Source of the DNA: Orenia metallireducens
GTDB taxonomy: Bacteria; Bacillota; Halanaerobiia; Halobacteroidales; Halobacteroidaceae
Length of the DNA: 64,000 nt
NCBI RefSeq assembly: GCF_003001995.1
Contig: NZ_PVNB01000012.1
Span: 1 to 64,000, forward strand
Direction: 5' to 3'
This document shows positions 10,958 to 29,954 of this stretch, piece by piece. How positions within the stretch are numbered: the first letter of the stretch is position 1; every line of letters starts with the position of its first letter. The translations under genes and the position numbers were made by a program. The notes beneath the pieces are model-generated. The model worked only from the letters and a program-made list of their open reading frames with translations, was not told where the DNA came from and searched no databases.

Positions 10958-10980
10958 ATGGTAATTAGATTTTAAGAAGG

Positions 10981-11034
10981 CTCATTTATGTTGGCTTATA
11001 ATTATATTATTAAAGCAAGTCTAACATAAATGAG
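10981..11034 (+). terminator. Stem-loop, probable terminator after the GH36 gene
   Basis: A 12-bp perfect stem (CTCATTTATGTT at 10981 with AACATAAATGAG at 11023-11034). Further pairing of GGCTT with AAGC lies inside. The downstream TTGTAAATTTATTTT is only moderately T-rich, so termination efficiency is uncertain. Confidence 0.55.
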
Positions 11035-11129
11035 TTGTAAATTTATTTTAGAAAAATAAGACATAATCTTTTAATATAGATATATTTTGAGAATTGATTC
11101 CTAAACTTAGTTTCTTTAATTAAAAAAGT

Positions 11130-11158
11130 TTGACGTTGCTTTAAAATTAAGCTATAAT
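11130..11158 (+). promoter_or_regulatory. galE promoter
   Basis: TTGACG (11130-11135), a 17-bp spacer and TATAAT (11153-11158) form a near-consensus sigma-A promoter. The predicted start near 11165 gives a leader of about 200 bases before galE. No AraC half-site or AAACCGGTTT operator is visible, so the Leloir genes look constitutive or controlled otherwise. Confidence 0.7.
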
Positions 11159-11362
11159 ATAATTAATAAATAATATTATAGAAGGGTATAATCTCTAAGA
11201 ATTTAATCCACTATAAGATAGGTTAAATTTTTATGCAATATTATTTTTATTTATCGTCTTTATTAAAATAATTAATTAAGTTGATTAGAGCTAGTAATTT
11301 AACGAAAGAAAAACTGATGATTAAAGAGTCAAAGAGATTATTAACAAAGGGGGAATTAAGTA

Positions 11363-12349
11363 ATGAATATTTTAGTAACTGGTGGTGCTGGATATATTGG
11401 GAGTCATGTAGTGAAAGAATTGTTAGAGACTGACCATCAAGTTGTAGTCTATGATAATTTGCAAAAGGGTCATAAGGAAGCTGTTTTAGGAGGAGTATTT
11501 GTTGAAGGTGATTTAGCTGATAGAGAATTATTAGATAGAACTTTTAGTAAGTATGATATTGAAGCAGTAATTCACTTGGCTGCTGATAGTCTAGTAGGGG
11601 AGTCGATGGAGAATCCAGCTAAATATTATCGTAATAATCTAGTTAATGGATTAAATCTGTTAGATGCAATGGTCAAGCATAATGTGAAAAAGATTGTCTT
11701 TTCATCTACTGCAGCAGTTTATGGAGATGTAGAAGAGGTACCGATTACAGAAGATTTACCTAAAGATCCAACCAGTGTTTATGGTAAATCAAAGCTATTC
11801 TTTGAAGAGATAATGAAGGATTATGATCAAGCTTATGGTCTAAAATTTGTCTCTTTAAGATATTTTAATGCAAGTGGTGCTGATGAATCTGGAAAGATTG
11901 GAGAAGACCATAATCCAGAGAGCCATTTAATTCCGATTGTATTACAGAAGGCTTTAGGTTTAAGAGATAAGTTAGCTATCTTTGGTACTGATTATCCAAC
12001 TAGAGATGGAAGCTGTGTTAGAGACTATATCCATGTTACAGACTTAGCTCAAGCTCATATTCTAGGAATTGAGGCTTTGGAAGCTGGTAAAGAGAGTGAG
12101 ATTTATAACTTGGGTAATGGTGATGGTTATTCAGTAAAAGAGGTAATTAACGTAGCCAGTGAGGTTGTAGGTAAAGAGATTGAAGCAGTAGAGGGTGATA
12201 GAAGAGCAGGAGACCCTGCCACCTTAATTGCTAGTTCTGATAGAATCAGAGAAGATTTAGCTTGGAATCCTCAGTATGGTGATTTAAAGACGATCATTGA
12301 GACGGCTTGGAAGTGGCATATGAATCATCCGGCAGGCTTTAAGAAATAG
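11363..12349 (+). CDS. galE: UDP-glucose 4-epimerase
   Basis: A 328-residue short-chain dehydrogenase/reductase that interconverts UDP-galactose and UDP-glucose with bound NAD+. The Rossmann motif GGAGYIGS is at residues 7-14. The catalytic YxxxK is Tyr140-Lys144 in VYGKSK, preceded by the FSSTAAVYG serine region. RYFNASGAD and CVRDYIHVTDLA are typical of GalE. It closes the Leloir cycle by regenerating UDP-glucose for GalT. It is separated from galT by about 750 bases that contain two repeat units and a small zinc-ribbon gene. The start has an AAAGGGGG ribosome site. Confidence 0.95.
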   Translation: MNILVTGGAGYIGSHVVKELLETDHQVVVYDNLQKGHKEAVLGGVFVEGDLADRELLDRTFSKYDIEAVIHLAADSLVGESMENPAKYYRNNLVNGLNLLDAMVKHNVKKIVFSSTAAVYGDVEEVPITEDLPKDPTSVYGKSKLFFEEIMKDYDQAYGLKFVSLRYFNASGADESGKIGEDHNPESHLIPIVLQKALGLRDKLAIFGTDYPTRDGSCVRDYIHVTDLAQAHILGIEALEAGKESEIYNLGNGDGYSVKEVINVASEVVGKEIEAVEGDRRAGDPATLIASSDRIREDLAWNPQYGDLKTIIETAWKWHMNHPAGFKK

Positions 12350-12435
12350 TAATAGCTTTGCGATGTTTAAATATAAAGCTATATTGATCTGTTGTGCTAG
12401 TTTAATTTAAATATTAATAGTGTCTTTTTATGGGT

Positions 12436-12720
12436 ATATTGCGATATTTTTGCTTTTTAAAAGCGAACAAAAATCTTAGGTTCCGCCTAAGGGCGGGTTA
12501 CGTTTTTCCTTGATGAAAAAGTAACCAAAAAATCAAGAAGAAAATTTAACTCTCTCAGCAACCAATATCTCTTGAAAATTAAAAATATAGTACTTCTACT
12601 TCAGAGATAACGCTATAATTATTGTTGTTCGAGAATATTTGCTTCGTTCAAACAGAAATTTTTTTCGGCTTAAAAAACCTTAAAATCTTTTTAAGTTTAA
12701 ATTCAAAAGTGTCGTAATAT
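12436..12720. repeat. Dispersed repeat, ATATTGCGA family, copy 1
   Basis: About 285 bases that start ATATTGCGATATTTTTGC and end GTGTCGTAATAT, so the ends are inverted copies. Inside is TCTTAGGTTCCGCCTAAGGG followed by GCGGGTT and a stretch reading TTCCTTGATGAAAAAGTAACC. These are nearly identical to 50168-50504. I see no open reading frame of note. Similar pieces occur in several other intergenic regions of this window. Confidence 0.75.
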
Positions 12721-12767
12721 CTCTCTGTTGTATCGGTTCTTCTACGAGCACACGGCGTTATATTGAT

Positions 12768-12852
12768 ATATTGCGACACTTTGGATGTTTAGATAGTTAG
12801 ACAGTTCTTAACCGCCTACCACCTGTCTACCTAATAAGCAAAGTGTTTTAAT
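12768..12852. repeat. Short member of the ATATTGCGA repeat family
   Basis: An 85-base unit with ends ATATTGCGACACTTT and AAAGTGTTTTAATAT in inverted orientation. Its interior has CCGCCTACCACCTGTCTACC, similar to the interior of the copy that ends at 44540. It lies immediately upstream of the small zinc-ribbon gene. Confidence 0.6.
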
Positions 12853-12899
12853 ATCTATCTAAAGTTTAAGTTTATACATCTATAAGGGGAGGGGCTATA

Positions 12900-13058
12900 A
12901 TGCAGATTAGAGGACGTGTAAGGTATTATGGTATGGGAAAGAATGAAGATGGGACTAGAATTTGTCCCAAATGCCGAGTTAAAATTAAATCTAAGTATAA
13001 AAAGGCTGCTAAAGAAGATGGTTGCCCTTATTGTGGATATAATTATGTTGCCAGTTAA
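12900..13058 (+). CDS. Small zinc-ribbon protein of unknown function
   Basis: A 52-codon gene with an ATG nine bases after a strong ribosome site (AAGGGGAGGGG). The product is basic (about a dozen Lys/Arg) and has two Cys pairs, CPKC at residues 22-25 and CPYC at 42-45, spaced as in a treble-clef or rubredoxin-like zinc ribbon. The G-rich N-terminus (RVRYYGMGKNEDGT) is not one I recognise. It lies 47 bases before galT and may be cotranscribed with it. Function unknown; a structural zinc site is the only inference. Confidence 0.7.
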   Translation: MQIRGRVRYYGMGKNEDGTRICPKCRVKIKSKYKKAAKEDGCPYCGYNYVAS

Positions 13059-13105
13059 AAAGAATTTTTGTTGGTTGAACATATTAAAATAAGGAGGTTG
13101 AAGAG

Positions 13106-14662
13106 ATGGCTAAGATTAATATTGCTTTAGAGATAGAAAAGTTACTAAAGTATGGAGAGGAAAAAGGATTATTGGCTAAATGGGACCTAGTTCCTATAAG
13201 AAATAGTATTATGGATTTATTAGAGTTGCCAGAGCCTTATGAGGGAGAGGTTGATTATGAAGTTGGTGATTCCCCTCAAGAAATTTTAGATAATATGCTT
13301 GATTATGCAGCGGAGAAAGGAATTTTAGAAGATAATACAATAACCTATCGGGATCTATTAGATACTGAGATTATGGGATTGATGATGCCTCGGGAATCTG
13401 AAGTAGTAAAGGAGTTTTGGACTAGAGCTGAAGAGGATATAAGAGAAGCTACAGATTATTTCTATAACCTATCCCAAGACTCCAACTATATCCGTAGAGA
13501 TAGAATAGCTAAGAATATGCATTGGTTGGCTAAAACCGATTATGGTGATTTAGAGATAACTGTTAATCTATCTAAGCCAGAAAAAGACCCTAAAGCGATT
13601 GCTGCTGCTAAGCAGATGAAGCAGAGTAGTTATCCTAAGTGTTTTTTATGCTTTGAAAATGTAGGATATCCAGGTAGAGTAAATCATCCTGCTCGTCAAA
13701 ACCACAGAGTTATTCCAATTACTTTAAATGATAAGCAGTGGTTTTTACAATATTCACCCTATGTCTATTATAATGAACATTCAATAGTTTTTTCTGAAAA
13801 ACATGAGCCAATGAGAATAGATAAGGATACTTTTGTCAATCTACTTGATTTTGTAGATCAACTTCCTCATTATTTCTTAGGTTCAAATGCTGACTTACCT
13901 TTAGTAGGTGGTTCGATTTTAAGCCATGACCATTTCCAAGGAGGACATCATATCTTTCCTATGGAAAGAGCAGAGGCTGAGGAAGAGTTCACTCATCCAG
14001 AGTTTATAGAGGTAAAGACAGGTATAGTAAATTGGCCGATGTCTGTACTGAGATTAAGTTCAGAGGATAAGGAGAAATTGATTGCATTAGCAACGACTAT
14101 TTTAAAAGAGTGGAGAACTTATAGTGATCAAGCTAGAGGTATAGTAGCTTTTTCAGAAGTAGAGGGAGAGAAAGAGCCCCATAACACTATAACTCCAATT
14201 GCTCGCAAGAAGGATGGAGTCTTTGAATTGGATTTAGTCCTACGGAATAATAGGACTTCTAAAGAATATCCAGATGGTATCTTCCATCCCCATCAAGAGC
14301 TACATCACATCAAAAAAGAGAATATAGGTTTAATAGAGGTGATGGGATTAGCGGTATTACCAGGTAGATTGAAGCAGGAGTTAGAAGAGGTAGCAAGGTA
14401 CCTAACTGGAGAAGAAGTCTTTGACCGAGAGGATATCCTAAATAAAGAGGATATAGCTAAGCATGTTGATTGGATAGCAGAAATGGTAGAGAGTTATGGT
14501 AGTAATTTAGAAGCAACAGAGGCTAAAGATACCTTAGAAAGAGAAGTAGGAATGAAGTTTATGAAAGTGCTTGAGCATGCAGGGGTCTTCAAACGAGATG
14601 AGGCTGGTAAGGAAGGCTTTAGAGAATTTTTAAGGAGTATAGGAATGGATGATAGCAATTAA
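13106..14662 (+). CDS. galT: UDP-glucose--hexose-1-phosphate uridylyltransferase (Firmicutes-type GalT)
   Basis: A 518-residue enzyme of the long Gram-positive GalT class, about 150 residues longer than the E. coli type. It swaps UMP from UDP-glucose to galactose-1-phosphate. Visible landmarks are PKCFLCFENVGYPGR (a Cys pair), HPARQNHRVIP, and the conserved GGSILSHDHFQGG block that supplies active-site histidines. The region FHPHQELHHIKKENIG is also typical. AAGGAGG ribosome site. It is followed 52 bases later by galK, forming the core of the Leloir pathway. Confidence 0.95.
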   Translation: MAKINIALEIEKLLKYGEEKGLLAKWDLVPIRNSIMDLLELPEPYEGEVDYEVGDSPQEILDNMLDYAAEKGILEDNTITYRDLLDTEIMGLMMPRESEVVKEFWTRAEEDIREATDYFYNLSQDSNYIRRDRIAKNMHWLAKTDYGDLEITVNLSKPEKDPKAIAAAKQMKQSSYPKCFLCFENVGYPGRVNHPARQNHRVIPITLNDKQWFLQYSPYVYYNEHSIVFSEKHEPMRIDKDTFVNLLDFVDQLPHYFLGSNADLPLVGGSILSHDHFQGGHHIFPMERAEAEEEFTHPEFIEVKTGIVNWPMSVLRLSSEDKEKLIALATTILKEWRTYSDQARGIVAFSEVEGEKEPHNTITPIARKKDGVFELDLVLRNNRTSKEYPDGIFHPHQELHHIKKENIGLIEVMGLAVLPGRLKQELEEVARYLTGEEVFDREDILNKEDIAKHVDWIAEMVESYGSNLEATEAKDTLEREVGMKFMKVLEHAGVFKRDEAGKEGFREFLRSIGMDDSN

Positions 14663-14714
14663 ATCAAGTCAAATAAAAATTAATTATATAGAAGATAAAT
14701 GGGGAGGGAATTAG

Positions 14715-15881
14715 ATGGAAGGATTAAAAAAAATATTCATTGATTATTTTGGAGATAATGGTAGTCCAATTAAATATGTTAAAGCCCCAGGACGGGTTAA
14801 TCTAATTGGGGAGCATACCGATTATAATGACGGATTTGTCTTACCAATTGCTATTGATAGAGATATTAGTATAGTGGCTCAAAAGCGAGAGGATAAAGAG
14901 GTTAAAATCTATTCTCTAGATTATAAAACAGAAGGGTCATTCTCCTTAGATAATATTCAATATAGTGAAGAAGAAAATTGGATTAATTATTTACAGGGTG
15001 TAGCTCAAATGATATTAGATGAGGGGTATCAGCTACAGGGAATGAATTTAGTCTTGACAGGAACTATCCCACAAGGAGCAGGGCTAAGTTCTTCGGCTGC
15101 TTTAGAAGTGGCTACAGCGCTGGCTTTTCAAGTGCTAAGTGGTTTTGAGTTAGATAGAGTAGAGATAGCTAAGCTTTGTCAGAAGGCTGAAAACAAATTT
15201 GTGGGAGTTAATTGTGGGATTATGGATCAATTTATCTCTGCATTAGGTCAACAGGATAATGCTCTATTCGTGGATTGTCGCTCTCATGAGTATAAGTTAG
15301 TTCCAATCGATACAAGTGAGATTAAGATAGTAATAGCTAATACTAATGTAGAACATAGCCTAGTGGATTCAGCTTATAATCAACGCTTAAGAGAATGTGC
15401 TAAAGCTGTTGACTATTTTAATAATGTGTTAGATAGAGAGATTCAGGCATTAAGAGATGTTGATATCAAGGAGTTTGAAGAGTATAAGAATGGATTAGAA
15501 GAGGTTATTAAAAAGAGAGCAGAGCATGTTATTTATGAAAATAAACGTGTTCAAGATACTATTGAAGCCTTTGCTCAGGATGATTTGAATAAAGTTGGAG
15601 AGTTGATGATTAAGTCCCATGAAAGCTTAAGAGATTTATATGAGGTTAGTTGTAAAGAGTTGGATATTATTGTTGATTTAGCCTTGGGTGTTGAGGGTGT
15701 CTTAGGTGCAAGGATGACAGGAGCAGGTTTTGGAGGATGTGTGGTAAGTTTAGTTAAAAAGGATGCAGTAGCTGAATTTAAAGAGAGAGTAGCTAAGAAT
15801 TATCAAGAGAAGACAGGGATTGAGACTGATATCTATATTTGTAATATAGAAGATGGAGCCCATGAAGTGATTAGCGTTTAA
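14715..15881 (+). CDS. galK: Galactokinase
   Basis: A 388-residue GHMP kinase that phosphorylates galactose on C1 with ATP. All three family motifs are present: the galactose signature GRVNLIGEHTDYNDGFVLP near residues 25-43, the ATP loop GAGLSSSAAL, and the C-terminal MTGAGFGGCVVSL. The catalytic aspartate is in NCGIMDQF. It is the last gene of the Leloir set, followed by a strong terminator at 15993. Galactose released by GH4, GH36 and GH2 enters metabolism here. Confidence 0.97.
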   Translation: MEGLKKIFIDYFGDNGSPIKYVKAPGRVNLIGEHTDYNDGFVLPIAIDRDISIVAQKREDKEVKIYSLDYKTEGSFSLDNIQYSEEENWINYLQGVAQMILDEGYQLQGMNLVLTGTIPQGAGLSSSAALEVATALAFQVLSGFELDRVEIAKLCQKAENKFVGVNCGIMDQFISALGQQDNALFVDCRSHEYKLVPIDTSEIKIVIANTNVEHSLVDSAYNQRLRECAKAVDYFNNVLDREIQALRDVDIKEFEEYKNGLEEVIKKRAEHVIYENKRVQDTIEAFAQDDLNKVGELMIKSHESLRDLYEVSCKELDIIVDLALGVEGVLGARMTGAGFGGCVVSLVKKDAVAEFKERVAKNYQEKTGIETDIYICNIEDGAHEVISV

Positions 15882-16030: not shown

Positions 16031-16074
16031 AATAATAAGCTAATTTTTAATAGTAAAATGGTAAGCTATTGATT

Positions 16075-16308: not shown

Positions 16309-16673
16309 ATATCTAATAAATGTAATTAATAACATAAGCAATTGTATTGTTTTTTTTAGATTTCTTACTTTATTTAATTAATTAAGTTTCTCTGAAAATG
16401 TAAGTTACTTTACCTTACAAGAGGCTTATTAGGTTGAGAAGATAAGAGAATGTCAGAAATAAAATATAAGATTATAATTATATGTTAAATAATAGATAGG
16501 ATATAATTGATGGATTAGTCGCTTTTATTCTAATAAAGCTAATTTTGAATGACAAATAGGGCAAAATAGAAATCAGATGAAAAAATAGCTGATTTGTCAA
16601 TTCTCATTTAAAATTAGTGTCTAAGAAGATTGCTGATTAACATATAATGGTATCTTTTATTTTTAATAATAAC

Positions 16674-16685
16674 TAAACCGGTTTA
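16674..16685. promoter_or_regulatory. LacI-type operator O1
   Basis: The 12-bp palindrome TAAACCGGTTTA has the central CG core typical of LacI/GalR-family operators. It lies 20 bases before the lacI start and would overlap the ribosome-site region, suggesting autoregulation. The same core occurs twice after the gene (17713-17740). Confidence 0.8.
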
Positions 16686-16705
16686 AGTGAAAGGAATATG
16701 ATAAT

Positions 16706-17704
16706 ATGGTAACTTTAAGAGATGTGGCTAAGGAAGCAGGGGTTTCTGCTGCTACAGCTTCGTTAGCACTTAATAATAGTGATAAAGTTAATATCGATAC
16801 ACTAAAGAAGGTTCAGAAGATAGCTAGAGAACTTAATTACATTCCAGATGCTAGGGCAAAAGCATTAACCAAAAAGTCAACTAAGATTATTGGTTTAGTT
16901 GTACCAGAGATAAATAATCCTTTTTTTGCTGATTTGGCACAAGCTATAAAGATGAAATTAAATGAATCAGATTATAGTATTATTTTATGTGGAACACAAA
17001 ATGATCCCAAAGAAGAGAAAAAATATATAGATATGTTTAGAAGTGGAATGGTTGATGGGGCTATCTTTACATGTTTAACAGAAGTAAATAATAGTTTTAT
17101 AACTGAACTTGCATCTAACCATATACCTGTTGTTTATATTGATAGAATAGGTGATGATGGTGGAATTATACCTATAGTAAAATCTAATTTAAAGGATGGT
17201 GGTTATCAAATAACTCGCCATTTGATAAAGTTGGGTCATAAAAAGATTGCTTATATTGGTAGAAAAGATGAAGAGAGATATGCTGGTTTTAAAGATGCGA
17301 TGTTAGAGTTTGGCTGTGAGATTAATAAAGATTATATTTTTGATAAATATCATGCATTTGAATCTGGGGTCAAAGCAGGTTTTATGTTAAATAATTTAGA
17401 AGATAAGCCAACAGGTATTATCTGTTTTAATGATGAAACAGCTATTGGATTAATGCAGACTCTAATAAAATTTGATTTTAATATTCCAAAGGATTTCTCA
17501 GTATGTGGTATTGATAATATAGATGTAGCCAAATATTATAGTCCTTCTTTAACAACTATAGATATTCCTAAAAAGAAGATGGGTAAGAAAGCAGCTGAAA
17601 TATTATTGAAATTAATAGCTGGCAAAGAAGTGGAAAAAGAAGATTATTTCATCAATTATCAAGTAAAATTAATTGAACGGGATTCCAGTTCTAAATTAGA
17701 ATAA
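16706..17704 (+). CDS. LacI/GalR-family transcriptional regulator of the galactan operon
   Basis: A 332-residue repressor with an N-terminal helix-turn-helix (TLRDVAKEAGVSAATASLAL, residues 3-22), the hinge helix region ARAKALTKKS, and a periplasmic-binding-like effector domain (KIIGLVVPEINNPFFADL onward to about 330). Three AAACCGGTTT operators flank the gene, one before and two after, so it probably represses itself and the transport and hydrolase genes downstream. The ATG at 16706 follows GAAAGGA. The inducer is likely galactose or a galacto-oligosaccharide (inference). Confidence 0.93.
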   Translation: MVTLRDVAKEAGVSAATASLALNNSDKVNIDTLKKVQKIARELNYIPDARAKALTKKSTKIIGLVVPEINNPFFADLAQAIKMKLNESDYSIILCGTQNDPKEEKKYIDMFRSGMVDGAIFTCLTEVNNSFITELASNHIPVVYIDRIGDDGGIIPIVKSNLKDGGYQITRHLIKLGHKKIAYIGRKDEERYAGFKDAMLEFGCEINKDYIFDKYHAFESGVKAGFMLNNLEDKPTGIICFNDETAIGLMQTLIKFDFNIPKDFSVCGIDNIDVAKYYSPSLTTIDIPKKKMGKKAAEILLKLIAGKEVEKEDYFINYQVKLIERDSSSKLE

Positions 17705-17752
17705 TCTCTTATTTAAACCGGTTTAATTAAACCGGTTTAAATAAGAGATTAT
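17701..17752. promoter_or_regulatory. Double LacI operator inside a perfect 52-bp palindrome
   Basis: Two copies of TTAAACCGGTTTAA abut at 17713-17726 and 17727-17740. The flanks (ATAATCTCTTAT and ATAAGAGATTAT) continue the symmetry, giving 26-bp perfect arms that start inside the lacI stop codon. It can act as tandem operators for the downstream operon. As RNA it would fold into a long hairpin that could end or slow read-through from lacI. Confidence 0.85.
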
Positions 17753-17891: not shown

Positions 17892-19196
17892 ATGAAAAGA
17901 TATTCAATAATGATTCTAGTTGGATTGTTAGCGTTAAGTATCATTGTAAGTGGGTGTGGTAATAAAGGTGCTAGTAACACAGGTGCTAATGATAATGAAA
18001 AGGGTAAACCTGCTGAGATTTCTATTGCATCTTGGAACTTGCAAGCTGATGCTTTAGAGGAAGCTGCAGAAAAGTTTAATAAAAGTCAATCAGAGGTTAA
18101 AGTTAATGTGCGAAGAGTTTCTAATAGTTATGACTCAATTGTTCCAGCACTAACTGCTGGGATAGGAGCACCTGATATTGTTGCGGTTCAAATGAGAGAT
18201 TTTGCGAACTTCATGGGTAAATTTCCTGATCAATTCGTTGACTTAAGTGATGAATTAATGCCTAGAAAAGATGAATTTTCTGATGCTGGATGGGGTGCTT
18301 CAACTAAAGATGGTAAAATATATGCTATCCCAGTTGATATTGCTCCAACTGCAGTTTATTATCGTAAAGATTATTTTGAAGAAGCTGGAATTAATCCAGA
18401 TAATTTAACAACTTGGGACAAATTCATGAAAGCCGGAAAGAAATTGCAAAGTAAGTTAGATGGAGTAAAAATGACTACGTTCTCTTTAACAAGTAATGAG
18501 ACCTATGATTTCTGGCAGATGATAGCTAATCAATTAGGTGGACGTTTTTATGATGAGCAAGGTAAGATTGATTTTACCAATGAGGCTAATATTAAAGCAA
18601 TGAAATTAGTCAAAGAGTTAAAAGAGAAAGATTTAGTTGTTGATTCACCATCATGGAATGATAGAGTTCGTGCAGTAGTTAATGGTGAGACTGCTACAAT
18701 AGTTTATCCAATCTGGTGGGCTGGTACTGTTAAGACCCAAGCAGCTGACCAAGCTGGCAAGTGGGGTATTATGCCATTACCTGCATTTACTGAAGGTGGA
18801 CCAAATCAAGCCAATCTTGGTGGATCGGTTTTTGCAGTAACAACACAATCTGAGCATCCAGAGGCTGCGTGGAAATTCTTAAAATACTTATTGTTAACAG
18901 AAGAAGGGCAGAAAATTCAGATGGACTATGGACTATTCCCAGCTTGGAAACCATTCTATAAATCAGAATCCTTTGCTACTGTAGATAAGTACTTTGGCTT
19001 CTCTTTAGCTAAAAGGTTCAGTGAATTAGCTACTGATATTCCGGCTATGAAATTTGGAGAGCACTTTTATGATGTCTCTCGACCATTAGAAACTGCTTTT
19101 GGGCAGATATTAAATGGGAAAAAAGATATTAAAGAGGCTTTTAAAGATGCTGAAAAGGCTGCTTCTAAAGCGAGTGGTTTACCAGTTAGCAAATAA
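17892..19196 (+). CDS. Sugar ABC transporter substrate-binding lipoprotein (galacto-oligosaccharide type)
   Basis: A 434-residue family-1 binding protein with lipobox IVSGC (Cys22). The mature protein shows IPVDIAPTAVYYRKDYFEEA, YPIWWAGTV and GGSVFAVTTQSEHPEAAWKF, the standard landmarks of CUT1 receptors. It is the first gene of the LacI-controlled operon, with the ribosome site AGGAGAG. Together with GH53, GH2 and a porin, its ligand is probably beta-1,4-galacto-oligosaccharide, like B. subtilis GanS (inference). It is only distantly similar to the receptor at 5592. A stem-loop follows that may raise its expression relative to the permeases. Confidence 0.92.
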   Translation: MKRYSIMILVGLLALSIIVSGCGNKGASNTGANDNEKGKPAEISIASWNLQADALEEAAEKFNKSQSEVKVNVRRVSNSYDSIVPALTAGIGAPDIVAVQMRDFANFMGKFPDQFVDLSDELMPRKDEFSDAGWGASTKDGKIYAIPVDIAPTAVYYRKDYFEEAGINPDNLTTWDKFMKAGKKLQSKLDGVKMTTFSLTSNETYDFWQMIANQLGGRFYDEQGKIDFTNEANIKAMKLVKELKEKDLVVDSPSWNDRVRAVVNGETATIVYPIWWAGTVKTQAADQAGKWGIMPLPAFTEGGPNQANLGGSVFAVTTQSEHPEAAWKFLKYLLLTEEGQKIQMDYGLFPAWKPFYKSESFATVDKYFGFSLAKRFSELATDIPAMKFGEHFYDVSRPLETAFGQILNGKKDIKEAFKDAEKAASKASGLPVSK

Positions 19197-19272: not shown

Positions 19273-20151
19273 ATGAAAGATTTTTTTCGTAAGAATATGA
19301 AGAATATAAGCCCTTATTTATTCATAGCACCATTTTTTATGTTATTTATAGTCTTTTTTCTATACCCAATCTTTTATTCATTGGTTCTTAGTTTTAGTAA
19401 ATGGACATCAGGCGGTTTAGAGTTTGTAGGTATTCAAAATTATCTTTATTTATTGACTGATCCGGTGTTTTGGAAATCATTATTGAATACAGGACAGATA
19501 TTAGTTATTCAGGTTCCTATTATGCTGTTGTTAGCCTGTGTTGTTGCTGTTTTAATTAATTCTAAACATACCAAGTATAAAGCATTATTTCGCTTAGGTT
19601 TTTTTGTTCCAGTTATTATAGATCTTGTTACTTATTCTCTTGTATTCTCTTTAATGTTCAATGAACGTTATGGGATAATCAATCAATTCCTTACTTCTAT
19701 TGGAATGAAGGGGATACCATGGTTTAGTAATGGTATTTGGGCTAAGGTAATGATAGCTATAGCTATGACCTGGAGGTGGACTGGCTACAATAGCATCATC
19801 ATATTATCAGGATTACAGTCGATACCAGGGACTATCTATGAAGCAGCTACTATTGATGGAGCCAATAAAATAGATACCTTCTTTAAGATTACCATACCGA
19901 TGTTAAAGCCTGTATTACTCTTTTGTATGATCTTATCTACTATTGGGACACTTCAATTGTTTACAGAGCCTTATATGTTAACTAAAGGTGGTCCCAATAA
20001 TGAAACTTTAACAGCTATATATTATATTTATGATCGGGCTTTTGGATCATTTAAGTTTGGTTTAGCTTCTGCTGGAGCTTATATTGTTACAACGATAATA
20101 GGTATCCTATCATATATACAATTAAAAGTATCTGACGGAGGGGAGATTTAA
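19273..20151 (+). CDS. Sugar ABC transporter permease (MalF type)
   Basis: A 292-residue inner-membrane permease with six predicted helices (the first from about residue 13, YLFIAPFFMLFIVFF). The EAA loop is YEAATIDGANKIDTFFKITI near residues 190-210. GGAGG lies 8 bases before the ATG, and the next permease begins at the base after this gene's stop. It is the B-subunit partner of the galacto-oligosaccharide importer. Confidence 0.92.
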   Translation: MKDFFRKNMKNISPYLFIAPFFMLFIVFFLYPIFYSLVLSFSKWTSGGLEFVGIQNYLYLLTDPVFWKSLLNTGQILVIQVPIMLLLACVVAVLINSKHTKYKALFRLGFFVPVIIDLVTYSLVFSLMFNERYGIINQFLTSIGMKGIPWFSNGIWAKVMIAIAMTWRWTGYNSIIILSGLQSIPGTIYEAATIDGANKIDTFFKITIPMLKPVLLFCMILSTIGTLQLFTEPYMLTKGGPNNETLTAIYYIYDRAFGSFKFGLASAGAYIVTTIIGILSYIQLKVSDGGEI

Positions 20152-20982
20152 ATGAATAATAAAAAAGAATTTACAAAAATATTAGTATATATTTTTCTTG
20201 GCTTAGGTTTAGTTATCTCGATCTATCCCTTTTATTGGATGTTGACAGCTTCAACCTTAAATGAAGCTCAGATATTTAAAACGCCTCCCAAGATGATACC
20301 AGCTGGTAATTTCCTAGATAATCTTTCAATGTTATTGGATCAGATGCCTATCTGGAATGGTCTTTTCAATAGCTTATTTGTTTCAACAGTTACTACCGCA
20401 AGTATAGTTTTATTATCTGCTTTAGCAGGCTATGCCTTTTCAAAATTTCATTTTAAAGGTAGCAAAATTTTATTTGCGATTATCTTATTAACGATGATGA
20501 TTCCATATCAAGTTACAATCGTTCCACTATTTATTATTATGATGAAGTTAGGATGGATTAATAGTTATAAAGCTCTGATAATTCCATACTTAGTTACTCC
20601 TTTTGGTGTGTTTTTAATGAGACAGCAGATGTTTGCTTTTCCAGAGGAGCTGATTGAGTCAGCTCGTGTAGATGGCTGTAGTGAGTTAGGAATATTCTTT
20701 AAAATTGTATTACCCAATATGTTACCTGCCTGTGCAGCTTTAGCAATAATAACCTTTTTACAGCAATGGGGTAATTTTATGTGGCCATTAATAGTTATGA
20801 ATACTCAAGAGAAATTTACTATGCCTTTGATGCTGTCAATGTTAGTAGCACCAGGTCAGGTTACCAAGTACGGACCGATCATGGTAGGGTCAGTTATTGG
20901 AATTATTCCAATAGCAATACTATTTATCTTCTTCCAGAAGCAGTTTGTATCAGGGATGTTTAATGGTTCAGTTAAGGGATAG
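20152..20982 (+). CDS. Sugar ABC transporter permease (MalG type)
   Basis: A 276-residue permease, the usual MalG size, with the EAA loop IESARVDGCSELGIFFKIVL and the typical C-terminus GMFNGSVKG. It starts directly after the previous stop, with GGAGGGG about 8 bases upstream, implying coupled translation. No ATP-binding subunit follows. A chemoreceptor gene comes next, 43 bases downstream, apparently in the same operon. Confidence 0.92.
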   Translation: MNNKKEFTKILVYIFLGLGLVISIYPFYWMLTASTLNEAQIFKTPPKMIPAGNFLDNLSMLLDQMPIWNGLFNSLFVSTVTTASIVLLSALAGYAFSKFHFKGSKILFAIILLTMMIPYQVTIVPLFIIMMKLGWINSYKALIIPYLVTPFGVFLMRQQMFAFPEELIESARVDGCSELGIFFKIVLPNMLPACAALAIITFLQQWGNFMWPLIVMNTQEKFTMPLMLSMLVAPGQVTKYGPIMVGSVIGIIPIAILFIFFQKQFVSGMFNGSVKG

Positions 20983-21025: not shown

Positions 21026-22720
21026 ATGAATAAAGATAAAATTTCTAATTATTTTCTGAAAATTTTTAGAATTAATGATTGGACTATTATGAGCAAATAT
21101 ATGGCTTCATTATTTTTCGTAATCTTATTATTTTTCGTTTCATTTACAATTATCCTTACCTTATTATTGGATATTAAAGCTGAAAATAACAAGGTTAAGG
21201 AGATAGGAAATGAATTAATTACTATCTCTAAAATGGAAAGTTTGATGATGCAGAAGAAAACAATAGTAATAAATTATATTAATGATTTTAATGAGCAAAA
21301 TTCAAGTGGAGAGAATTATAACAATCGTCAGGCCAATTTGCTAGAGTTTAATAAGATTAAGACAGAGTATGACGGCTTGAAAGACAAACTCAACAGGGAA
21401 GTAAATAATGAAAAATTAAAAAGACTTTTTAATACTATTCAAGAGTATGATGAGAATTTTAATGAGGTTTTTTTAAAAAAGATTGTCCCCTTATTTAAAG
21501 AGAATTCTAAGTTAAATAGCTGGAGTGTAAACTCAAATCTATCAAAAGGATTTGAAAATGCAAATCAAAATATATTCTTATTAGAGACAGCTAAAGAAAT
21601 TTTAATAGAAGATAGAGAGGTTATTGCTAAAGGTTCTAAAGAAAAGATAAAAATGACAATCATAACTTTAATATCTGCTATTATCATCTCTTCGGTACTG
21701 GGGTTTGTACTAATTTTAATAATAAGTACCCGAATTAAAAATAATTTGAAAAAAGTTATAAAAGTCAGTAATGAAATAGCTAAGGGCAATCTAGCTGTGG
21801 AAAAGTTAAATTATAAGGGCAAAGATGAAATTGGATTACTGGCTAAGTCAATTAATATGATGATAGATAACTTAAAAGAGGTTATCTATAAGACATTAAA
21901 TGCTTCTAATAATACTTTAGTAACTACCGAAGAAATATCTGCTGCTACTGAAGAGAATAGTGCTTCAATAGAGGATGTTGCAGATGTAGTTAAAGACTTT
22001 GTTTTAACTAGCAATAAGTTAGCAAAAGTATCAACTGATATAAGTAATCTTATAGACAAGAGTGTTGAGCTTGTTGGAACTGGATTCCAAGAGATACAAG
22101 ATACAGAAGGTAAGATGAATAAAATAATTAACTCTTCACAAAAATCAACAAGCAGGATGGTTGAGCTTAATGCTGAGACTGAAGAGGTGGTTAAGATAGT
22201 AGAGGTGATCTCTGAAATTGCTGAGCAGACCAATTTATTGGCTTTAAATGCATCTATAGAAGCTGCTAGGGCAAATTTTATTACGGAGGGTTCTAGCGGA
22301 ACCCGTAGGGGGAAGCATGGTTCTGGTTTTGCTGTTGTAGCAGATGAGATTAGAGGGTTGGCTGCTAGAACTAAAAATTCAGTTGGTGACATTAGAAGTA
22401 TCATAGATAGGGTTACTGCTAATACAGACAACGTAGTAACTAGTATTCAAAAGAATAATTTAGAGGTTGAAGCAGGTGCTCAAAGCTTGGTTCAAGCTAA
22501 AGAGACCTTTAATAAAATAGATAGCAAAATTAAGTTAATTGCCAACCAGATAAGAGAAGTGGCTAATTTAGGGAAAGAAATTTACTCTAAAAGTGCAGGA
22601 GTATCTGTAATGACAGAAGAGCAATCGGCAACTATACAGCAGATATCTACTTCTATGGATGAATTGTCAGTTATGGCAAGTAACTTAAATAATATAGTAG
22701 AGAGGTTTAATTTAGATTAA
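21026..22720 (+). CDS. Methyl-accepting chemotaxis protein in the galactan operon
   Basis: A 564-residue receptor with a first membrane helix at about 25-48, a helical periplasmic sensor (about 50-208) of four-helix-bundle type, a second helix at about 210-233, HAMP to about 285, and a signalling domain to the end. The conserved tip starts normally ([20 protein letters not shown]). It then carries 14 residues (417-430, [14 protein letters not shown]) in place of the usual two before [13 protein letters not shown]. Gaps of 43 and 42 bases to its neighbours place it in the operon. It probably steers the cell towards galacto-oligosaccharides, perhaps through the binding protein at 17892 (inference). 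Confidence 0.93.
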
Positions 22721-22762: not shown

Positions 22763-24979
22763 ATGAGGAGAATAATTTCATTAAATAGAGATTGGAGATA
22801 TATCAGTGATTATAAGCAAGAGTATCTAAGGACTGAATATAATGATGAGATATGTGAGATTGTAAATATCCCACATGCTAATAAAACGCTTCCTTTTAAT
22901 TACACCAAGGAGAAGGATTATCAATTTGTCTCCTTTTATCAAAAAGATATCTTTATTCCCAAAGAGTATAGAGATCAGAATATCTTCATCAAATTTGAAG
23001 GTGTTATGACTTATGCTAAGGTCTTCTTAAATGGAGAATATCTAGGAGAGCATAAGGGAGGATATACAGGCTTTGAAATATTATTGAATTCAGCTGTGAA
23101 ATTTGAGGCTAATAATACTTTGTCAGTTGTAGTTGATTCTACAGAGAGAGCAGATATTCCCCCTTTTGGGGACAAGATAGATTATTTGACCTATGGTGGA
23201 ATCTATAGAGAGGTTGAGCTGAAGGTAGTTGATAAGGTGTTTATCGAGAATATCTTTGCTAAGCCTACTGATGTATTAGAGGATAAGAAGAGGGTTGATG
23301 TAGATATAGCTATAGCCAATAGTGAAGCAGCTACAGCAGTAATTCCTATAGCTGTAACCCTCAAAGATGGTGACAGGGTTATTGAAGAGAAGAGCATAGA
23401 CTATAGCTTAAGTGGTAAACTGGAGGAAGTTATTTCACTAGAATTAGAAAATTTAGAGGATATAGAACTGTGGGATATAGATAATCCTAAGTTATATCAA
23501 TTAGAGGTTGAGTTAAGGAGTCTAGATAAAGATCAGAGAAGAATTGGTTTTAGAACAGCGGAGTTTAAGGCAGAAGGATTTTATCTAAATGGAGAAAAAG
23601 TAAAGATCAAAGGAATGAACAGGCATCAATCCTATCCTTATGTTGGCTATGCAATGCCTGAAAGAATCCAGAAGAAGGATGCCGATATTTTAAAGGATTT
23701 TTTAAGATTGAATTTAGTCAGAACCTCCCATTATCCCCAATCAAAACATTTTCTAGATAGATGTGATGAGATTGGATTATTGGTTTTTGAAGAATTACCA
23801 GGCTGGCAGCATATCGGTGATGATGAGTGGAAAGAGGTAGCTAAAGAGAACATAAGAGAGATGATAAAGAGAGATTTTAATAGACCATCAATTATTCTAT
23901 GGGGAGTAAGAATTAATGAATCAGCTGATGACCATGATTTTTATATAGATACAAATAGGATTGCTAAAGAGTTAGACCCTACTAGACAGACCGGAGGGGT
24001 GAGGTGTATTACTGATAGTGAATTACTAGAGGATGTATATACCTTCAATGATTTTATCTTGGGTAATGGAGAGACTATTTTAAGAGAGCAAGAAGAGGTA
24101 ACTGGCTTATCTAAGAAGGTACCTTATTTAGTTACAGAGTACTCTGGACATATGTATCCAACTAGAAGATATGATACAGAGGAGAGGCAGACAGAGCATA
24201 CTTTAAGGCATTATAAGATCTTAAACCAAGGTAATTTAGATGATTATATCTCTGGTGTGATTGGTTGGTGTGCCTTTGACTATAATACTCACAGAGATTT
24301 TGGTTCAGAAGATAGAATCTGTTATCATGGTGTAATGGATATATTTAGAATACCTAAGTTTGCTGCCTATGTCTATCATTCTCAAGTCTCACCAGAAGTA
24401 GAAACAGTATTAGAACCAATTACAGTTTGGACTAGAGGAGAGAGAAGTGAAGCAATTATTAATCCGTTGGTGATTGCTACCAATTGTGATAAGGTTAATT
24501 TTTATTATGGTGATGAACTCTATGGAACCTATTATCCAGATGATCAGAAATTTAAAGCTTTAGAGTATCCACCAATTATTATTGAGGATTTTGGTAGTCA
24601 ATGGGGTAAAACTTGGCAAGATGCTAAATTCATTGGCTATTACAATGGTGTTGAAGTCATTAATAAGAAATTGTCTTGTGAATCCTATTTGGCTGATATA
24701 GAAGTAGTTGCAGATGACTATCAGTTAAATAGTGGTGATTGGGATGCAACAAGAGTTGTGATTAAAGCTGTCGATAATCAGAATAATCAGTTGAAGTTCT
24801 ATAATGGTATAGTAGAGTTGGAAATAACAGGTGTTGGTGAGATCATTGGACCGAAGTTGACCACTCTTCATGGTGGAAGTCTATCGACTTGGCTTAAGAC
24901 TTCTGGAGCAGCTGGAAAGATAGAACTTAAAGTAAAGGTAGAAGACCATATTAAGCAGATTGAGATTGATGTAGTTTAA
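22763..24979 (+). CDS. Glycoside hydrolase family 2, probable beta-galactosidase
   Basis: A 738-residue cytoplasmic enzyme without signal peptide. It has an N-terminal sugar-binding jelly roll (about 1-165), an immunoglobulin-like sandwich (about 175-270), a TIM barrel (about 275-580) and C-terminal beta domains. The acid/base is Glu386 in WGVRINES and the nucleophile is Glu459 in VTEYSG. KIKGMNRHQSYPYVG is the usual barrel entry motif. GH2 also contains beta-glucuronidases and mannosidases, but the galactan context favours cleavage of imported galacto-oligosaccharides to galactose. It is much shorter than LacZ (about 1020). Ribosome site GGAGG 8 bases before the ATG. Confidence 0.88.
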   Translation: MRRIISLNRDWRYISDYKQEYLRTEYNDEICEIVNIPHANKTLPFNYTKEKDYQFVSFYQKDIFIPKEYRDQNIFIKFEGVMTYAKVFLNGEYLGEHKGGYTGFEILLNSAVKFEANNTLSVVVDSTERADIPPFGDKIDYLTYGGIYREVELKVVDKVFIENIFAKPTDVLEDKKRVDVDIAIANSEAATAVIPIAVTLKDGDRVIEEKSIDYSLSGKLEEVISLELENLEDIELWDIDNPKLYQLEVELRSLDKDQRRIGFRTAEFKAEGFYLNGEKVKIKGMNRHQSYPYVGYAMPERIQKKDADILKDFLRLNLVRTSHYPQSKHFLDRCDEIGLLVFEELPGWQHIGDDEWKEVAKENIREMIKRDFNRPSIILWGVRINESADDHDFYIDTNRIAKELDPTRQTGGVRCITDSELLEDVYTFNDFILGNGETILREQEEVTGLSKKVPYLVTEYSGHMYPTRRYDTEERQTEHTLRHYKILNQGNLDDYISGVIGWCAFDYNTHRDFGSEDRICYHGVMDIFRIPKFAAYVYHSQVSPEVETVLEPITVWTRGERSEAIINPLVIATNCDKVNFYYGDELYGTYYPDDQKFKALEYPPIIIEDFGSQWGKTWQDAKFIGYYNGVEVINKKLSCESYLADIEVVADDYQLNSGDWDATRVVIKAVDNQNNQLKFYNGIVELEITGVGEIIGPKLTTLHGGSLSTWLKTSGAAGKIELKVKVEDHIKQIEIDVV

Positions 24980-25349: not shown

Positions 25350-26645
25350 ATGTTGGCAAAGAAAAAAATAGGAAGTTCTCTTTTTAATCTTATGTTACTA
25401 AGCTTGGTTCTGTTACTATTAAGTGGAGGAGCTTATGCAGATGAATCTGTTGAGCAGAGACTGACTCAAGTTGAGGAAAAACTATCTATCCTAGAAGATG
25501 GATTTGAATATAATGGTTATGCTCGAGCAGGGTATACAATGTCTATCAATGGTGGTGCAGCAAATAGTAATTTTGATTCTGATTTTGGGTTAGGGCATTT
25601 TAGATTGGGAAATGAAGTAGATACTTATGTAGAGCAGACATTTTCTAAGAAGTGGACTAAAGAAAATGGTTCTTGGATGAGAGCACAATTCTTACTTACT
25701 AATCAAAATCATGGAGACTCAACTTGGGAGACTGATGGTGCTACTGGATTACTTAGTAATGCTTATGTAGAGGCTGGTAATCTTAGCTATCTTCCAGAAA
25801 ATTCTAGCATTTGGGTAGGACAGAGATTTTATGGTCGTGATGACATCCATATTATAGATTTCAAATGGCGGGCAATGGATGGATATGGAGCAGGAATTGA
25901 AAATCTTAAAACTGATTTAGGAACTTTTGATATTGCCTTTATTGGTCGTGGACATGATTCAGATGTTAGATATGACCTAGGAGAAATTTCACAGCAGAAT
26001 ATTGATATTAGATTAAAAGGTGTTAAGGTATTAAATGGTACTATGGATTTTGCAGTTACTCCATCTTGGGCTAAGGATAATGACTATGATGAGTATGGTT
26101 TAGGCTTAGCAGCAGTATATAATAAAGGTGACTTCTATAACTTATTACCAGGATTTAGTAAGTTTGCAATTCAGTATGGAAATAGATTAGGGGCTAGTTT
26201 AGGCGGTCCTGATGGAACATGGTTAGATACTGATGATCCTCAAAGTATTAGATTATTAACTTATGGTGTCGGTAATATAAGTGATAAGACACAGATTATG
26301 CCTGAATTTATCTATCAAATGGATGATAGAGATGATAATGATATTAATACTATTTCAGTAGGTGCTAGATTGGAGCACTTCTATAATGATACTTTTGCAA
26401 TGCAATATGAATATGGTTTTGAATATCAAGATCAAGATACTTGGGATGATGCCCAAACAATTAATAAGTTTACAGTAGCTCCAACGATTACTTGGGAGAG
26501 TGATTTCTGGTCACGTCCACAATTACGTGCATTTGTTACTTATGCTACTGTTAGTGATGATGTTGATTTGGATGGTGGAAGTGCTGAGTATAAAGCAGGC
26601 GAGAGTGGTATGACTTATGGTTTTCAAACAGAGCTATGGTGGTAA
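25350..26645 (+). CDS. LamB/maltoporin-like outer-membrane sugar porin
   Basis: A 431-residue protein with a Sec signal peptide (cleavage likely near GGAYA-DE, residue 31) and a short coiled-coil segment (VEQRLTQVEEKLSILEDG). A long stretch of alternating beta-strand sequence rich in Tyr, Gly and Asp follows. FYGRDDIHIIDFKW and the following DGYGAGIENL closely recall LamB, and the C-terminal FQTELWW has the aromatic last residue that BAM recognises. It should form a trimeric 18-strand pore for oligosaccharides in an outer membrane. It lies between GH2 and GH53, so galacto-oligosaccharides are the likely cargo. An outer-membrane porin in a Firmicute implies a diderm host. Confidence 0.85.
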   Translation: MLAKKKIGSSLFNLMLLSLVLLLLSGGAYADESVEQRLTQVEEKLSILEDGFEYNGYARAGYTMSINGGAANSNFDSDFGLGHFRLGNEVDTYVEQTFSKKWTKENGSWMRAQFLLTNQNHGDSTWETDGATGLLSNAYVEAGNLSYLPENSSIWVGQRFYGRDDIHIIDFKWRAMDGYGAGIENLKTDLGTFDIAFIGRGHDSDVRYDLGEISQQNIDIRLKGVKVLNGTMDFAVTPSWAKDNDYDEYGLGLAAVYNKGDFYNLLPGFSKFAIQYGNRLGASLGGPDGTWLDTDDPQSIRLLTYGVGNISDKTQIMPEFIYQMDDRDDNDINTISVGARLEHFYNDTFAMQYEYGFEYQDQDTWDDAQTINKFTVAPTITWESDFWSRPQLRAFVTYATVSDDVDLDGGSAEYKAGESGMTYGFQTELWW

Positions 26646-26899: not shown

Positions 26900-28429
26900 A
26901 TGAAAAAATTATTAGTATTATTGTTAGTAGCGGGATTACTTGTAATATCAGTTGCTTGTTCTTCAGACAAAGATGATGTTAGTGCTGCAGAAAATAGCAG
27001 CTATAATATTAACGGTCAAGTTATAGCAGAAACTAATGATATAGATCTAAGTAAAATAAAAGTGAAGATATCAGGAAATGAGATAGAAGATAGTACTTCT
27101 GAATTAGATGAAGAAGATATGTGGTCGGCAACTGGATTAAAAGGAGAAGTAACAGTAACTCCAGTAGATGATAGTAATCAATATACCTTTATTCCCTCAA
27201 AAGTAGTGCTGACTTCAAATTCAGAGGAGATAAGCTTTACAGTAACAGAAAGGGTTCAAATTGAACCGATTAGTGGTGTAAGTGATGATTTTATTAGAGG
27301 GATGGATGTTTCTGCACTAAAAGCAATTGAGGAGAGTGGCGGAAAGTATTATGAAAATGGAGAAGAAAAAGATTTACTAGAAATATTAAAAGGTCGTGGT
27401 GTTAACTACATTAGGTTAAGATTATGGAATGATCCATCTGGAAAAGGTGGAGGAGAGACTGATCTGGAAACAGTAAAAGAATTAGCCAAGCGAGCAAAGG
27501 ATTTAGAGATGAAAGTATTCTTAGATTTTCATTATAGTGACTTCTGGGCAGATCCAGGAAAGCAAAATAAACCTGCTGCGTGGGAAGAGCTAAGCTTTGA
27601 AGAATTAAAGCAAGCAATTTATGATTTTACCTATAATTCTCTTAATGAATTAAATACTGCAGGTGCTCTGCCTGATATGGTGCAGATTGGAAATGAAGTG
27701 AATAACGGTATGTTGTGGCCTGATGGAATGTTATGGCCATATCTAGATGAGTTTCCTGATTATACTGAAGATGTTATCGGGGGCTGGAGTGGATTTGGTG
27801 CATTATTACAAGAGGGTTTAGATGCTATTGATCAGATAGAAGCAGAGACAGGGGAAGAAATAAAATCAGTCATTCATAAAGCAGATGCTGGAGAAGGAGT
27901 TGACTGGTTCATTAAAGATCTTGAAGAGAAAGCCGGCGTTATAGGGTTTGATGTAGTAGGAATTTCTTATTATCCTTATTGGGAGAAGCATGGAGGGCTT
28001 CGTGATAATTATACGGGGTGGACTAACCTTTTACAGGAGATGACAGCCTTAGCGAATAGAGGTTATGAAGTTGCAGTTGTAGAGACATCTTATGGCTTTA
28101 CATTAGAAGGAGCTGATGATGAGCCAAATCATCTGGATCAAGAGAGACTTGATACAATTGCTGCACTTGATGATGGTCGATATCTACCAACTCCAAGTAT
28201 TCAAGGCCAAGCTGATCTGGTTAGAGAAGTAATGGAAGTAGTCAATGAAGTCCCTGATAATAAGGGTCTTGGAATCTTTTATTGGGGGGGAGAATTAATT
28301 CCTTCCGAAGGTGCCACTTGGAAAGCTGGTGAAGAATATGGTAATGGATATGAAAATCAAGCACTGTTTGATTTTAAAGGTAATGCATTACCTTCTTTAG
28401 ATGTCTTTAATAAGGTAATAGATAATTAA
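26900..28429 (+). CDS. Arabinogalactan endo-beta-1,4-galactanase (GH53), lipoprotein
   Basis: A 509-residue lipoprotein (lipobox ISVAC, Cys20, followed by Ser-Ser). Residues about 30-120 form a small beta-rich N-terminal domain, and a GH53 TIM barrel runs from about 130 (RGMDVSALKAIEESGG) to the end. The acid/base is Glu266 in QIGNEVNNG and the nucleophile is Glu395 in VVETSYG. KVFLDFHYSDFWADPGKQ and YYPYW are family hallmarks. It cuts beta-1,4-galactan (pectic type I arabinogalactan) outside the cytoplasm into oligomers for the porin and ABC importer. The Ser after the Cys would favour outer-membrane sorting in Lol-type systems (inference). Confidence 0.95.
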   Translation: MKKLLVLLLVAGLLVISVACSSDKDDVSAAENSSYNINGQVIAETNDIDLSKIKVKISGNEIEDSTSELDEEDMWSATGLKGEVTVTPVDDSNQYTFIPSKVVLTSNSEEISFTVTERVQIEPISGVSDDFIRGMDVSALKAIEESGGKYYENGEEKDLLEILKGRGVNYIRLRLWNDPSGKGGGETDLETVKELAKRAKDLEMKVFLDFHYSDFWADPGKQNKPAAWEELSFEELKQAIYDFTYNSLNELNTAGALPDMVQIGNEVNNGMLWPDGMLWPYLDEFPDYTEDVIGGWSGFGALLQEGLDAIDQIEAETGEEIKSVIHKADAGEGVDWFIKDLEEKAGVIGFDVVGISYYPYWEKHGGLRDNYTGWTNLLQEMTALANRGYEVAVVETSYGFTLEGADDEPNHLDQERLDTIAALDDGRYLPTPSIQGQADLVREVMEVVNEVPDNKGLGIFYWGGELIPSEGATWKAGEEYGNGYENQALFDFKGNALPSLDVFNKVIDN

Positions 28430-28443
28430 GTATTAATTCTTTA

Positions 28444-28484
28444 AAATTGTCCTCAGATTTCATGGGGGCAATTTTTATTTTTAA
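28444..28484 (+). terminator. Terminator after the galactanase gene
   Basis: AAATTGTCCTC pairs with GGGGGCAATTT (two G-U pairs), followed by TTTATTTTTAA. It closes the galactan cluster. Confidence 0.8.
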
Positions 28485-28550
28485 TAATAAGCTAATTTTT
28501 AATGGTAAATAGGGCAAAATAGGAGTAAAGCGAAGGAAAAGGTGATTTTT

Positions 28551-29954
28551 ATGGTAGAAAAGTTTACAGAATTTCAAGCTAAGAGGATGGAAATATTTAG
28601 AGAAGTCGTTAAACGGGAATGGAATGGAAAGCTGTTGACCAATGATGATTTAGAAGAGCTGGTAGCAGAGATAAAGAAGAAGTATGATTATAATGATGAA
28701 GATGACCTCTTTATTAGAGATCATATCAGAGTAGCAATGGGTCTTAACCCTAGTCAAAGTAAGTCCTTTACTTATGAATTAGAGGATATCAAGAACTTAG
28801 ATCATATAGAAAAGCCGATTGTAACTAAGATAGAAGGAAGATGTGAATCCTGTGGCAAGGAGCTTGAAGAGAGGGACTGCTATAATAGTTGTAAGTATGA
28901 AGCCCACATGTATAAGAGAAGTAAAGGACCGATAATAGTCAATGAGAAGTGTTTAAATTGTGGTAGCTGTGTGAGCAGCTGTTCCTTTGGAGCTATCGCT
29001 GATAAGATAGAGTTTCTTCCTATTACTAATCTATTGAAGGATGAAGAGACCACTGTTTATGCAGCAGTTGCTCCCTCAATTGTAGGGCAATTTGGTGATG
29101 ATATTACTATGGGGCAAATTAGGACAGCTCTTAAGTATATGGGTTTTCAAGATATGATTGAAGTAGCCTTGTTTGCTGACATGTTAACTATCAAGGAGGC
29201 CTTTGAATTTGATCATTTAGTCAAGAAGGAGGATGACTTTTTCTTAACAAGTTGTTGTTGTCCAGTCTGGATTAGACTTGTAGAGAACAATTATCCTGAG
29301 GTCTTTGAACATATGTCGCCCTCAGTTTCACCTATGGTCTTATCAGGGAGAATGCTCAAAAAGCTTTACCCCGACTCTAAGGTAGTCTTTATTGGGCCTT
29401 GTATTGCTAAAAAATCTGAAGCAAAGGAGCCAGAGCTGGCTGGAGCAATTGATTTTGTCTTAACTTATAGTGAGCTTGATGAGATCTTTAAAGCCTTAGA
29501 TATTAACTTAGCTGAGTTACCTTCTGATGAGAAGGATCAAGCATCCTTTGCAGGCAGGGTTTATGCTAGGACTGGTGGGGTTAGCTTCTCTGTTAAAACA
29601 GTAGTAAATCGGATCGCTCCTAGAAGGTTGGTTAAACTTCGGGCTAAAAAAGTCGATGGTGTTAAGGAATGTAAGCAGATATTAGAGGATTTATTAGCAG
29701 CTAAGGAGAGAGAAGCCAACTTTGTAGAAGGTATGGGCTGTGATGGTGGTTGTGTTGGTGGACCTAGAACCAATATCGATACAGATAAAGCAACTAAGAT
29801 TGTAAATGAATATGGAGAGGATTCATTGATCATGACTCCCTTTGATAATATGAATATAATTAAGATATTACAAGAGCTAGGTTCCGATAGAATAGAGGAT
29901 TTGATGGATGAAGGAAATGAAGTAGGTAGATTATTGATCAGGGAAAAGCAGTGA
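28551..29954 (+). CDS. [FeFe]-hydrogenase-like protein with noncanonical H-cluster motifs
   Basis: A 467-residue protein. An acidic N-terminal region (about 1-85) precedes a Cys-rich patch (CESC...CYNSC), then one 4Fe-4S ferredoxin motif CLNCGSCVSSC (about 140), then the H-cluster domain. The three signature loops are present but shifted from the classic forms: TSCCCPVW (extra Cys), GPCIAKKSE (Gly where Met is usual) and EGMGCDGGCVGG. It may evolve or oxidise H2 at low rate, or act as a redox sensor. No maturase or electron-partner genes are adjacent. The ATG at 28551 fits the ribosome site AAAAGGTGA better than the GTG at 28542. Part of its N-terminus is duplicated at 16075. Confidence 0.88.
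   Translation: MVEKFTEFQAKRMEIFREVVKREWNGKLLTNDDLEELVAEIKKKYDYNDEDDLFIRDHIRVAMGLNPSQSKSFTYELEDIKNLDHIEKPIVTKIEGRCESCGKELEERDCYNSCKYEAHMYKRSKGPIIVNEKCLNCGSCVSSCSFGAIADKIEFLPITNLLKDEETTVYAAVAPSIVGQFGDDITMGQIRTALKYMGFQDMIEVALFADMLTIKEAFEFDHLVKKEDDFFLTSCCCPVWIRLVENNYPEVFEHMSPSVSPMVLSGRMLKKLYPDSKVVFIGPCIAKKSEAKEPELAGAIDFVLTYSELDEIFKALDINLAELPSDEKDQASFAGRVYARTGGVSFSVKTVVNRIAPRRLVKLRAKKVDGVKECKQILEDLLAAKEREANFVEGMGCDGGCVGGPRTNIDTDKATKIVNEYGEDSLIMTPFDNMNIIKILQELGSDRIEDLMDEGNEVGRLLIREKQ

Follow-up and report, generated by a model that had tools for sequence, protein, structure and literature searches.

The window analysed here, a stretch of 64,000 nucleotides from Orenia metallireducens (contig NZ_PVNB01000012.1), carries a gene cluster in the order LacI–SBP–permease–permease–MCP–GH2–LamB–GH53, with all genes on the + strand. 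The gene for the LamB-family porin, whose product we call P0001, lies between the GH2 and GH53 genes and is co-directional with them. The cluster and its neighbours comprise the following features; no Rfam elements were found within the window.

8762..15881, + strand: GH36 alpha-galactosidase (by Pfam), galE, galT and galK (by their translations)
16673..16686, no strand: operator-like palindrome with one mismatch, 5' of lacI
16706..17704, + strand: LacI-family regulator (Pfam LacI and Peripla_BP)
17713..17740, no strand: two tandem exact TTAAACCGGTTTAA palindromes, ahead of the gene for the binding protein
17892..19196, + strand: ABC solute-binding lipoprotein, GanS/MalE-like (SBP_bac_1, E=1.3e-41)
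19273..20982, + strand: two ABC sugar permeases of MalF/MalG type (ORFs; 27-31% identity to gan-locus permeases)
21026..22720, + strand: methyl-accepting chemotaxis protein inside the cluster (Pfam MCPsignal, HAMP)
22763..24979, + strand: GH2 beta-galactosidase-like enzyme (Pfam GH2 domains; NCBIfam GalA-like, under the cut-off)
25350..26645, + strand: P0001, LamB-family sugar porin of 431 aa (PF02264, AlphaFold2 barrel, Foldseek)
26900..28429, + strand: GH53 endo-beta-1,4-galactanase, probable lipoprotein (Glyco_hydro_53, E=4.8e-100)
28542-29954: Fe-only hydrogenase C-terminal-domain protein with 4Fe-4S motifs, beside the cluster

GH53 together with the Leloir route constitutes a beta-1,4-galactan pathway, and the position of its gene suggests that P0001 belongs to this pathway. 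The GH53 enzyme has a lipobox (...ISVAC/SS, read by eye), and a signal peptide is not evident in the GH2 enzyme. A second sugar ABC unit also lies upstream of the gan cluster, with GH36 and galE/galT/galK. The 4.1-Mb genome contains only two exact copies of the LacI operator-like TTAAACCGGTTTAA palindrome, both at 17713-17740; the palindrome ahead of lacI differs from it at one position. The palindrome search found no operator copy at the porin promoter and none belonging to GH53 itself. The abutting TTAAACCGGTTTAA palindromes are part of a larger perfect inverted repeat of 44 bp. The MCP gene sits between the permease and GH2 genes of the galactan cluster, and chemotaxis to galactan sugars is the likely role of its product.

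The P0001 reading frame starts with ATG, ends with TAA and is immediately preceded by a strong ribosome-binding site, AAGGAGGAG. It can be divided as follows.

25350..25439, + strand: signal peptide, residues about 1-30 (MLAKKK...GGAYA/DES, by direct reading, with a putative cleavage site at the slash)
25443..25496, + strand: short N-terminal helix, residues 32-49 (AlphaFold2, low confidence)
25500..26642, + strand: 18-stranded beta-barrel, residues 51-431, with a C-terminal W (Pfam, AlphaFold2, Foldseek)
25863..25865, + strand: codon of Lys172, aligned with the LamB constriction residue Tyr118

A sequence-only reading of this DNA had proposed a LamB-type sugar porin from a signal peptide, FYGRDDIHIIDFKW, GAGIENL and a C-terminal FQTELWW, all of which we found in P0001. 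The profile search that it called for gave a Pfam match to PF02264 with E=1.2e-86 and 292.5 bits (curated cut-off 25.1) over profile positions 1-378 of 378. Among solved structures, phmmer against the PDB placed ScrY closest (6.5e-25), followed by maltoporins (about 1e-20), and these matches together with the full-length Pfam match exclude a chance match. However, P0001 missed the NCBIfam maltoporin cut-offs, scoring 189 vs 394 bits for NF006860 and 97 vs 765 for the equivalog NF009061, and we therefore regard it as a LamB-family porin that is non-canonical as a maltoporin. With 30 aligned sequences as input, AlphaFold2 predicted exactly 18 strands, from 51-65 to 419-430 (pLDDT 80.6, pTM 0.78), as had been anticipated, and the model superposes on ScrY; Foldseek ranked ScrY first (TM 0.78-0.82) and maltoporin next. 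The full-length match, the 18-strand model and the Foldseek ranking thus bear out the porin assignment and confirm P0001 as a genuine member of the maltoporin family of outer-membrane sugar channels, with a predicted barrel. The presence of an outer membrane in the host, which that reading took as known for Halanaerobiales, is supported by four Omp85/BamA-type matches in the genome and by the nearest P0001 relatives, which occur in Halanaerobium and Halanaerobacter. Relatives, among them Halanaerobacter jeridensis of the same family, put the host in the Halobacteroidaceae.

LamB is rare in the class Halanaerobiia, with PF02264 present in 5/59 genomes. Outside the class, identity to P0001 reached at most 32% among the best 80 loci of a pattern-seeded scan that covered one genome per species in 84,980 species. 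All six LamBs of Halanaerobiia group in a single clade (100/98 support) adjoining Cetobacterium and ScrY-type porins, and the closest relatives of P0001 in this clade are LamBs with an N-terminal CBM48 or SLH domain. A recent duplication of the second LamB gene of the same genome as the source of P0001 was unsupported, the two proteins being 46% identical. Two Halanaerobiia genomes have a full-length GH53 and no LamB, implying that the porin is dispensable for galactan use in the class.

ScrY (1a0s/1a0t) is the best PDB match to P0001 by both sequence and fold, and both proteins have an N-terminal helical extension. The coiled coil of ScrY is long and its 118 position is occupied by Asp, whereas P0001 has a short helix, Lys at that position and a LamB-like Arg at 109. 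P0001 residues 32-49 align with the ScrY-type coiled-coil extension in much shortened form, with ScrY relatives having SIEARLAALEQRLQ there, and the stretch looks like a shortened version of this known feature; despite this by-eye alignment, the Sugarporin_N profile (PF11471) had no match in P0001 at E<=10. The sequence-only reading had also suggested an N-terminal coiled coil that might reach into the periplasm or cell wall. A short heptad-like stretch, ESVEQRLTQVEEKLSILEDG, is indeed present, but the part of the claim concerning the wall did not hold, as P0001 has a single 18-residue helix, no SLH domain by Pfam and no Sugarporin_N match. OmpM is tethered to the wall by SLH domains (PMC10628300, PMC5007114); five SLH matches occur elsewhere in the host genome, and P0001, without SLH, is not an OmpM-like tethering porin with SLH plus stalk.

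In contrast to P0001, its relatives in Halanaerobiia carry CBM48 (PF16561/PF02922) or SLH (PF00395) at the N-terminus.

G000:C12:65023-66222 (L009:9577-11226): second LamB of the host genome, CBM48/AMPK1_CBM N-terminus
L010:9809-11512, L011:9261-10925, L012:9129-10745: CBM48/AMPK1_CBM-LamB relatives
L015:7533-9206 (= L014:2284-3960): SLH-LamB of Halanaerobium saccharolyticum MSL 17.2, with a long stalk (PF00395, 6.5e-11)

In four LamBs, CBM48 sits between signal peptide and barrel with scores over the Pfam cut-offs; outside the host these fusions occur in Halanaerobacter jeridensis (G006), G011 and G012. All four genes adjoin amylase- or pullulanase-type lipoprotein genes, an assignment tested by Pfam for L009 only, and the CBM48 part is possibly a periplasmic starch-binding module on a maltoporin. 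AlphaFold2 of one CBM48-LamB (L016) gave a fine barrel, with pLDDT <50 for the CBM48 part, which had few homologues in the alignment. No paper on a CBM48-LamB fusion was found in a literature search that covered few subscription journals. The H. saccharolyticum SLH-LamB can be likened to a LamB barrel with an OmpM-like tether, and its gene has a glucosidase-like gene and a sugar ABC unit nearby. These fusions suggest exchangeable periplasmic modules on diderm Firmicute porins, which would bear on both the tethering and the feeding of their outer membranes.

The aromatic lane of LamB has been listed, and control of the central constriction ascribed to Tyr118 (PMC3558487). We aligned P0001 to E. 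coli LamB and use LamB mature numbering for pore positions. The fourth lane residue of LamB we take to be F227, printed as F229 in PMC3558487. All six greasy-slide aromatics are identical in P0001 (Y57, Y93, W126, F269, W387 and W430), and the polar residues R59, R85, E95, R163 and D170 are kept (LamB R8, R33, E43, R109 and D116), so that P0001 has in common with E. coli LamB the 18 strands, the six slide aromatics and most of the polar track. Three pore positions are changed, namely R82 to S136, Y118 to K172 and D121 to A175; at position 82, nearly all LamBs, GanL included, have Arg or Lys.

GanL reportedly belongs to the gan locus of Dickeya and Pectobacterium, which are soft-rot bacteria (Delangle et al. 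2007, J Bacteriol 189:7053, cited in PMC7492773). A passage of PMC7492773 describes Dickeya GanL as an outer-membrane porin for oligogalactans. In three Pectobacterium/Brenneria genomes, the gan loci contain LacI, LamB, SBP, two permeases and GH53. Like the genes of GanL-type galactan porins, that of P0001 has GH53 and a gan ABC transporter as neighbours; P0001 and GanL are both LamB-family proteins encoded near GH53, SBP, permease and LacI genes, and both have Lys at LamB position 118. However, GanL is only 26% identical to P0001, is placed on the same side of the tree as E. coli LamB and has no N-terminal helix, no P0001-type GH2 or MCP was found near it, and most GanLs are missing slide aromatics that P0001 retains.

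To place the shared Lys in context, we turned to an order-wide survey, since an earlier GH53 survey of the class of G061 had given too few matches. Among 395 genomes of the Pectobacterium/Brenneria order, 38 were GH53-positive and their GH53 surroundings were examined. Lys occupied position 118 in 17/17 GH53-linked LamBs, compared with 5 of 77 control LamBs without GH53 linkage, taken from 22 of the GH53-positive genomes (the others: F 29, Y 25, D 10, E 4, H 4), and the closest unlinked relatives of GanL (L195-L198, L218, L235) have Tyr there. Six of 98 other LamBs have this Lys, giving a chance of roughly 6% for a random LamB. Of 129 GanL-conserved columns, P0001 shares 62, only four of which are rare elsewhere (LamB 70, 115, 118 and 261), and among these 118 alone has a known constriction role. 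A Fisher test of the Lys/GH53 association gave 1e-18 but ignores ancestry, and the effective count is two origins. With column 118 removed from the alignment for both the topology test and the count of changes, a tree with P0001 and GanL as one clade within LamB was rejected (p-AU 8.9e-7), indicating that P0001 gained its Lys separately from GanL; three changes on the tree are required to account for the residue, including one in the unrelated L060. The same test, with the 26% identity, rejects P0001 as a GanL orthologue and, for the porin, co-transfer of the whole gan locus with GanL from enterobacteria. The association of Lys118 with GH53, with two independent origins, is suggestive, not proof. 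Lys at position 118 without GH53 linkage occurs in these data in L255 (G774:C5) and L060 (Biostraticola tofi). We found no paper on Lys at this position in GanL, in a search covering few subscription journals.

Taking these results together, we consider it probable that P0001 is a LamB-family 18-strand channel that would trimerize in the outer membrane and pass beta-1,4-galacto-oligosaccharides to the periplasm. The galacto-oligosaccharide substrate, already put forward in the sequence-only reading, is well supported by the gene context and the Lys172/GanL parallel, short of proof. The GH53 lipoprotein, presumably exposed at the surface, would cut galactan, and the galacto-oligosaccharides would move through P0001 along the aromatic greasy slide and an eyelet with Lys in place of Tyr118. 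Uptake from the periplasm would then be the task of the binding protein and ABC permeases, GH2 and the Leloir enzymes would complete the breakdown of the sugars, and LacI may control the system via the palindromes upstream of the cluster. P0001 would fill the same role as Dickeya GanL, having been recruited independently.

P0001 might instead be a broad-specificity LamB porin for malto-, galacto- and other oligosaccharides that is merely located in the gan cluster, with Lys172 a product of neutral drift. LamB and ScrY themselves admit several sugars, P0001 retains the full maltoporin slide, and the sporadic Lys in 6/98 LamBs would fit drift as well. Nevertheless, the maltodextrin role is already filled by the second LamB, whose gene lies beside amylase genes, and Lys is invariant in GH53-linked LamBs while the nearest unlinked relatives of GanL have Tyr, making this explanation rather unlikely. 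Far less probable still is a role for P0001 in carrying another galactoside, such as lactose or melibiose/raffinose-type alpha-galactosides, on behalf of the GH36/AraC/ABC unit nearby. GH36 and the second sugar ABC transporter do lie 10-20 kb upstream, but an AraC-type regulator of its own accompanies that unit, whereas the porin gene is flanked by GH2 and GH53, shares their orientation and is located downstream of the LacI-operator unit.

Sugar-specific LamB-type porins are known mainly from Gram-negative groups. P0001 is a well-formed predicted LamB porin within a complete galactan cluster of a Firmicutes lineage that retains an outer membrane. A galactan porin function has a precedent in Dickeya GanL, and the Lys common to both proteins, at the site that governs the constriction in LamB (PMC3558487), provides a one-residue, testable hypothesis on sugar choice by LamB. 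A more general proposal, which we put forward tentatively and at slightly below an even chance, is that Lys118 is a convergent beta-1,4-galacto-oligosaccharide switch in GanL and P0001, combined in Halanaerobiia with a LamB chassis whose N-terminus is swapped among helix, SLH and CBM48.

The hydrogenase-like gene at 28542-29954 is kept in close relatives. A decayed 158-bp copy (83%) of its 5' end lies at 16057-16214 and a further 37 bp of the gene is repeated at 16021-16057, so that, through this truncated copy, the gan cluster is flanked by direct repeats (16021-16214 and 28473-28780). The sister genome G012 also has the hydrogenase gene, with 95% protein identity, but neither gal nor gan genes occur in the 17 kb upstream of it. 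It follows that the galactoside region, missing at the same place in G012, belongs to the accessory part of this strain's genome, either gained here or lost in G012.
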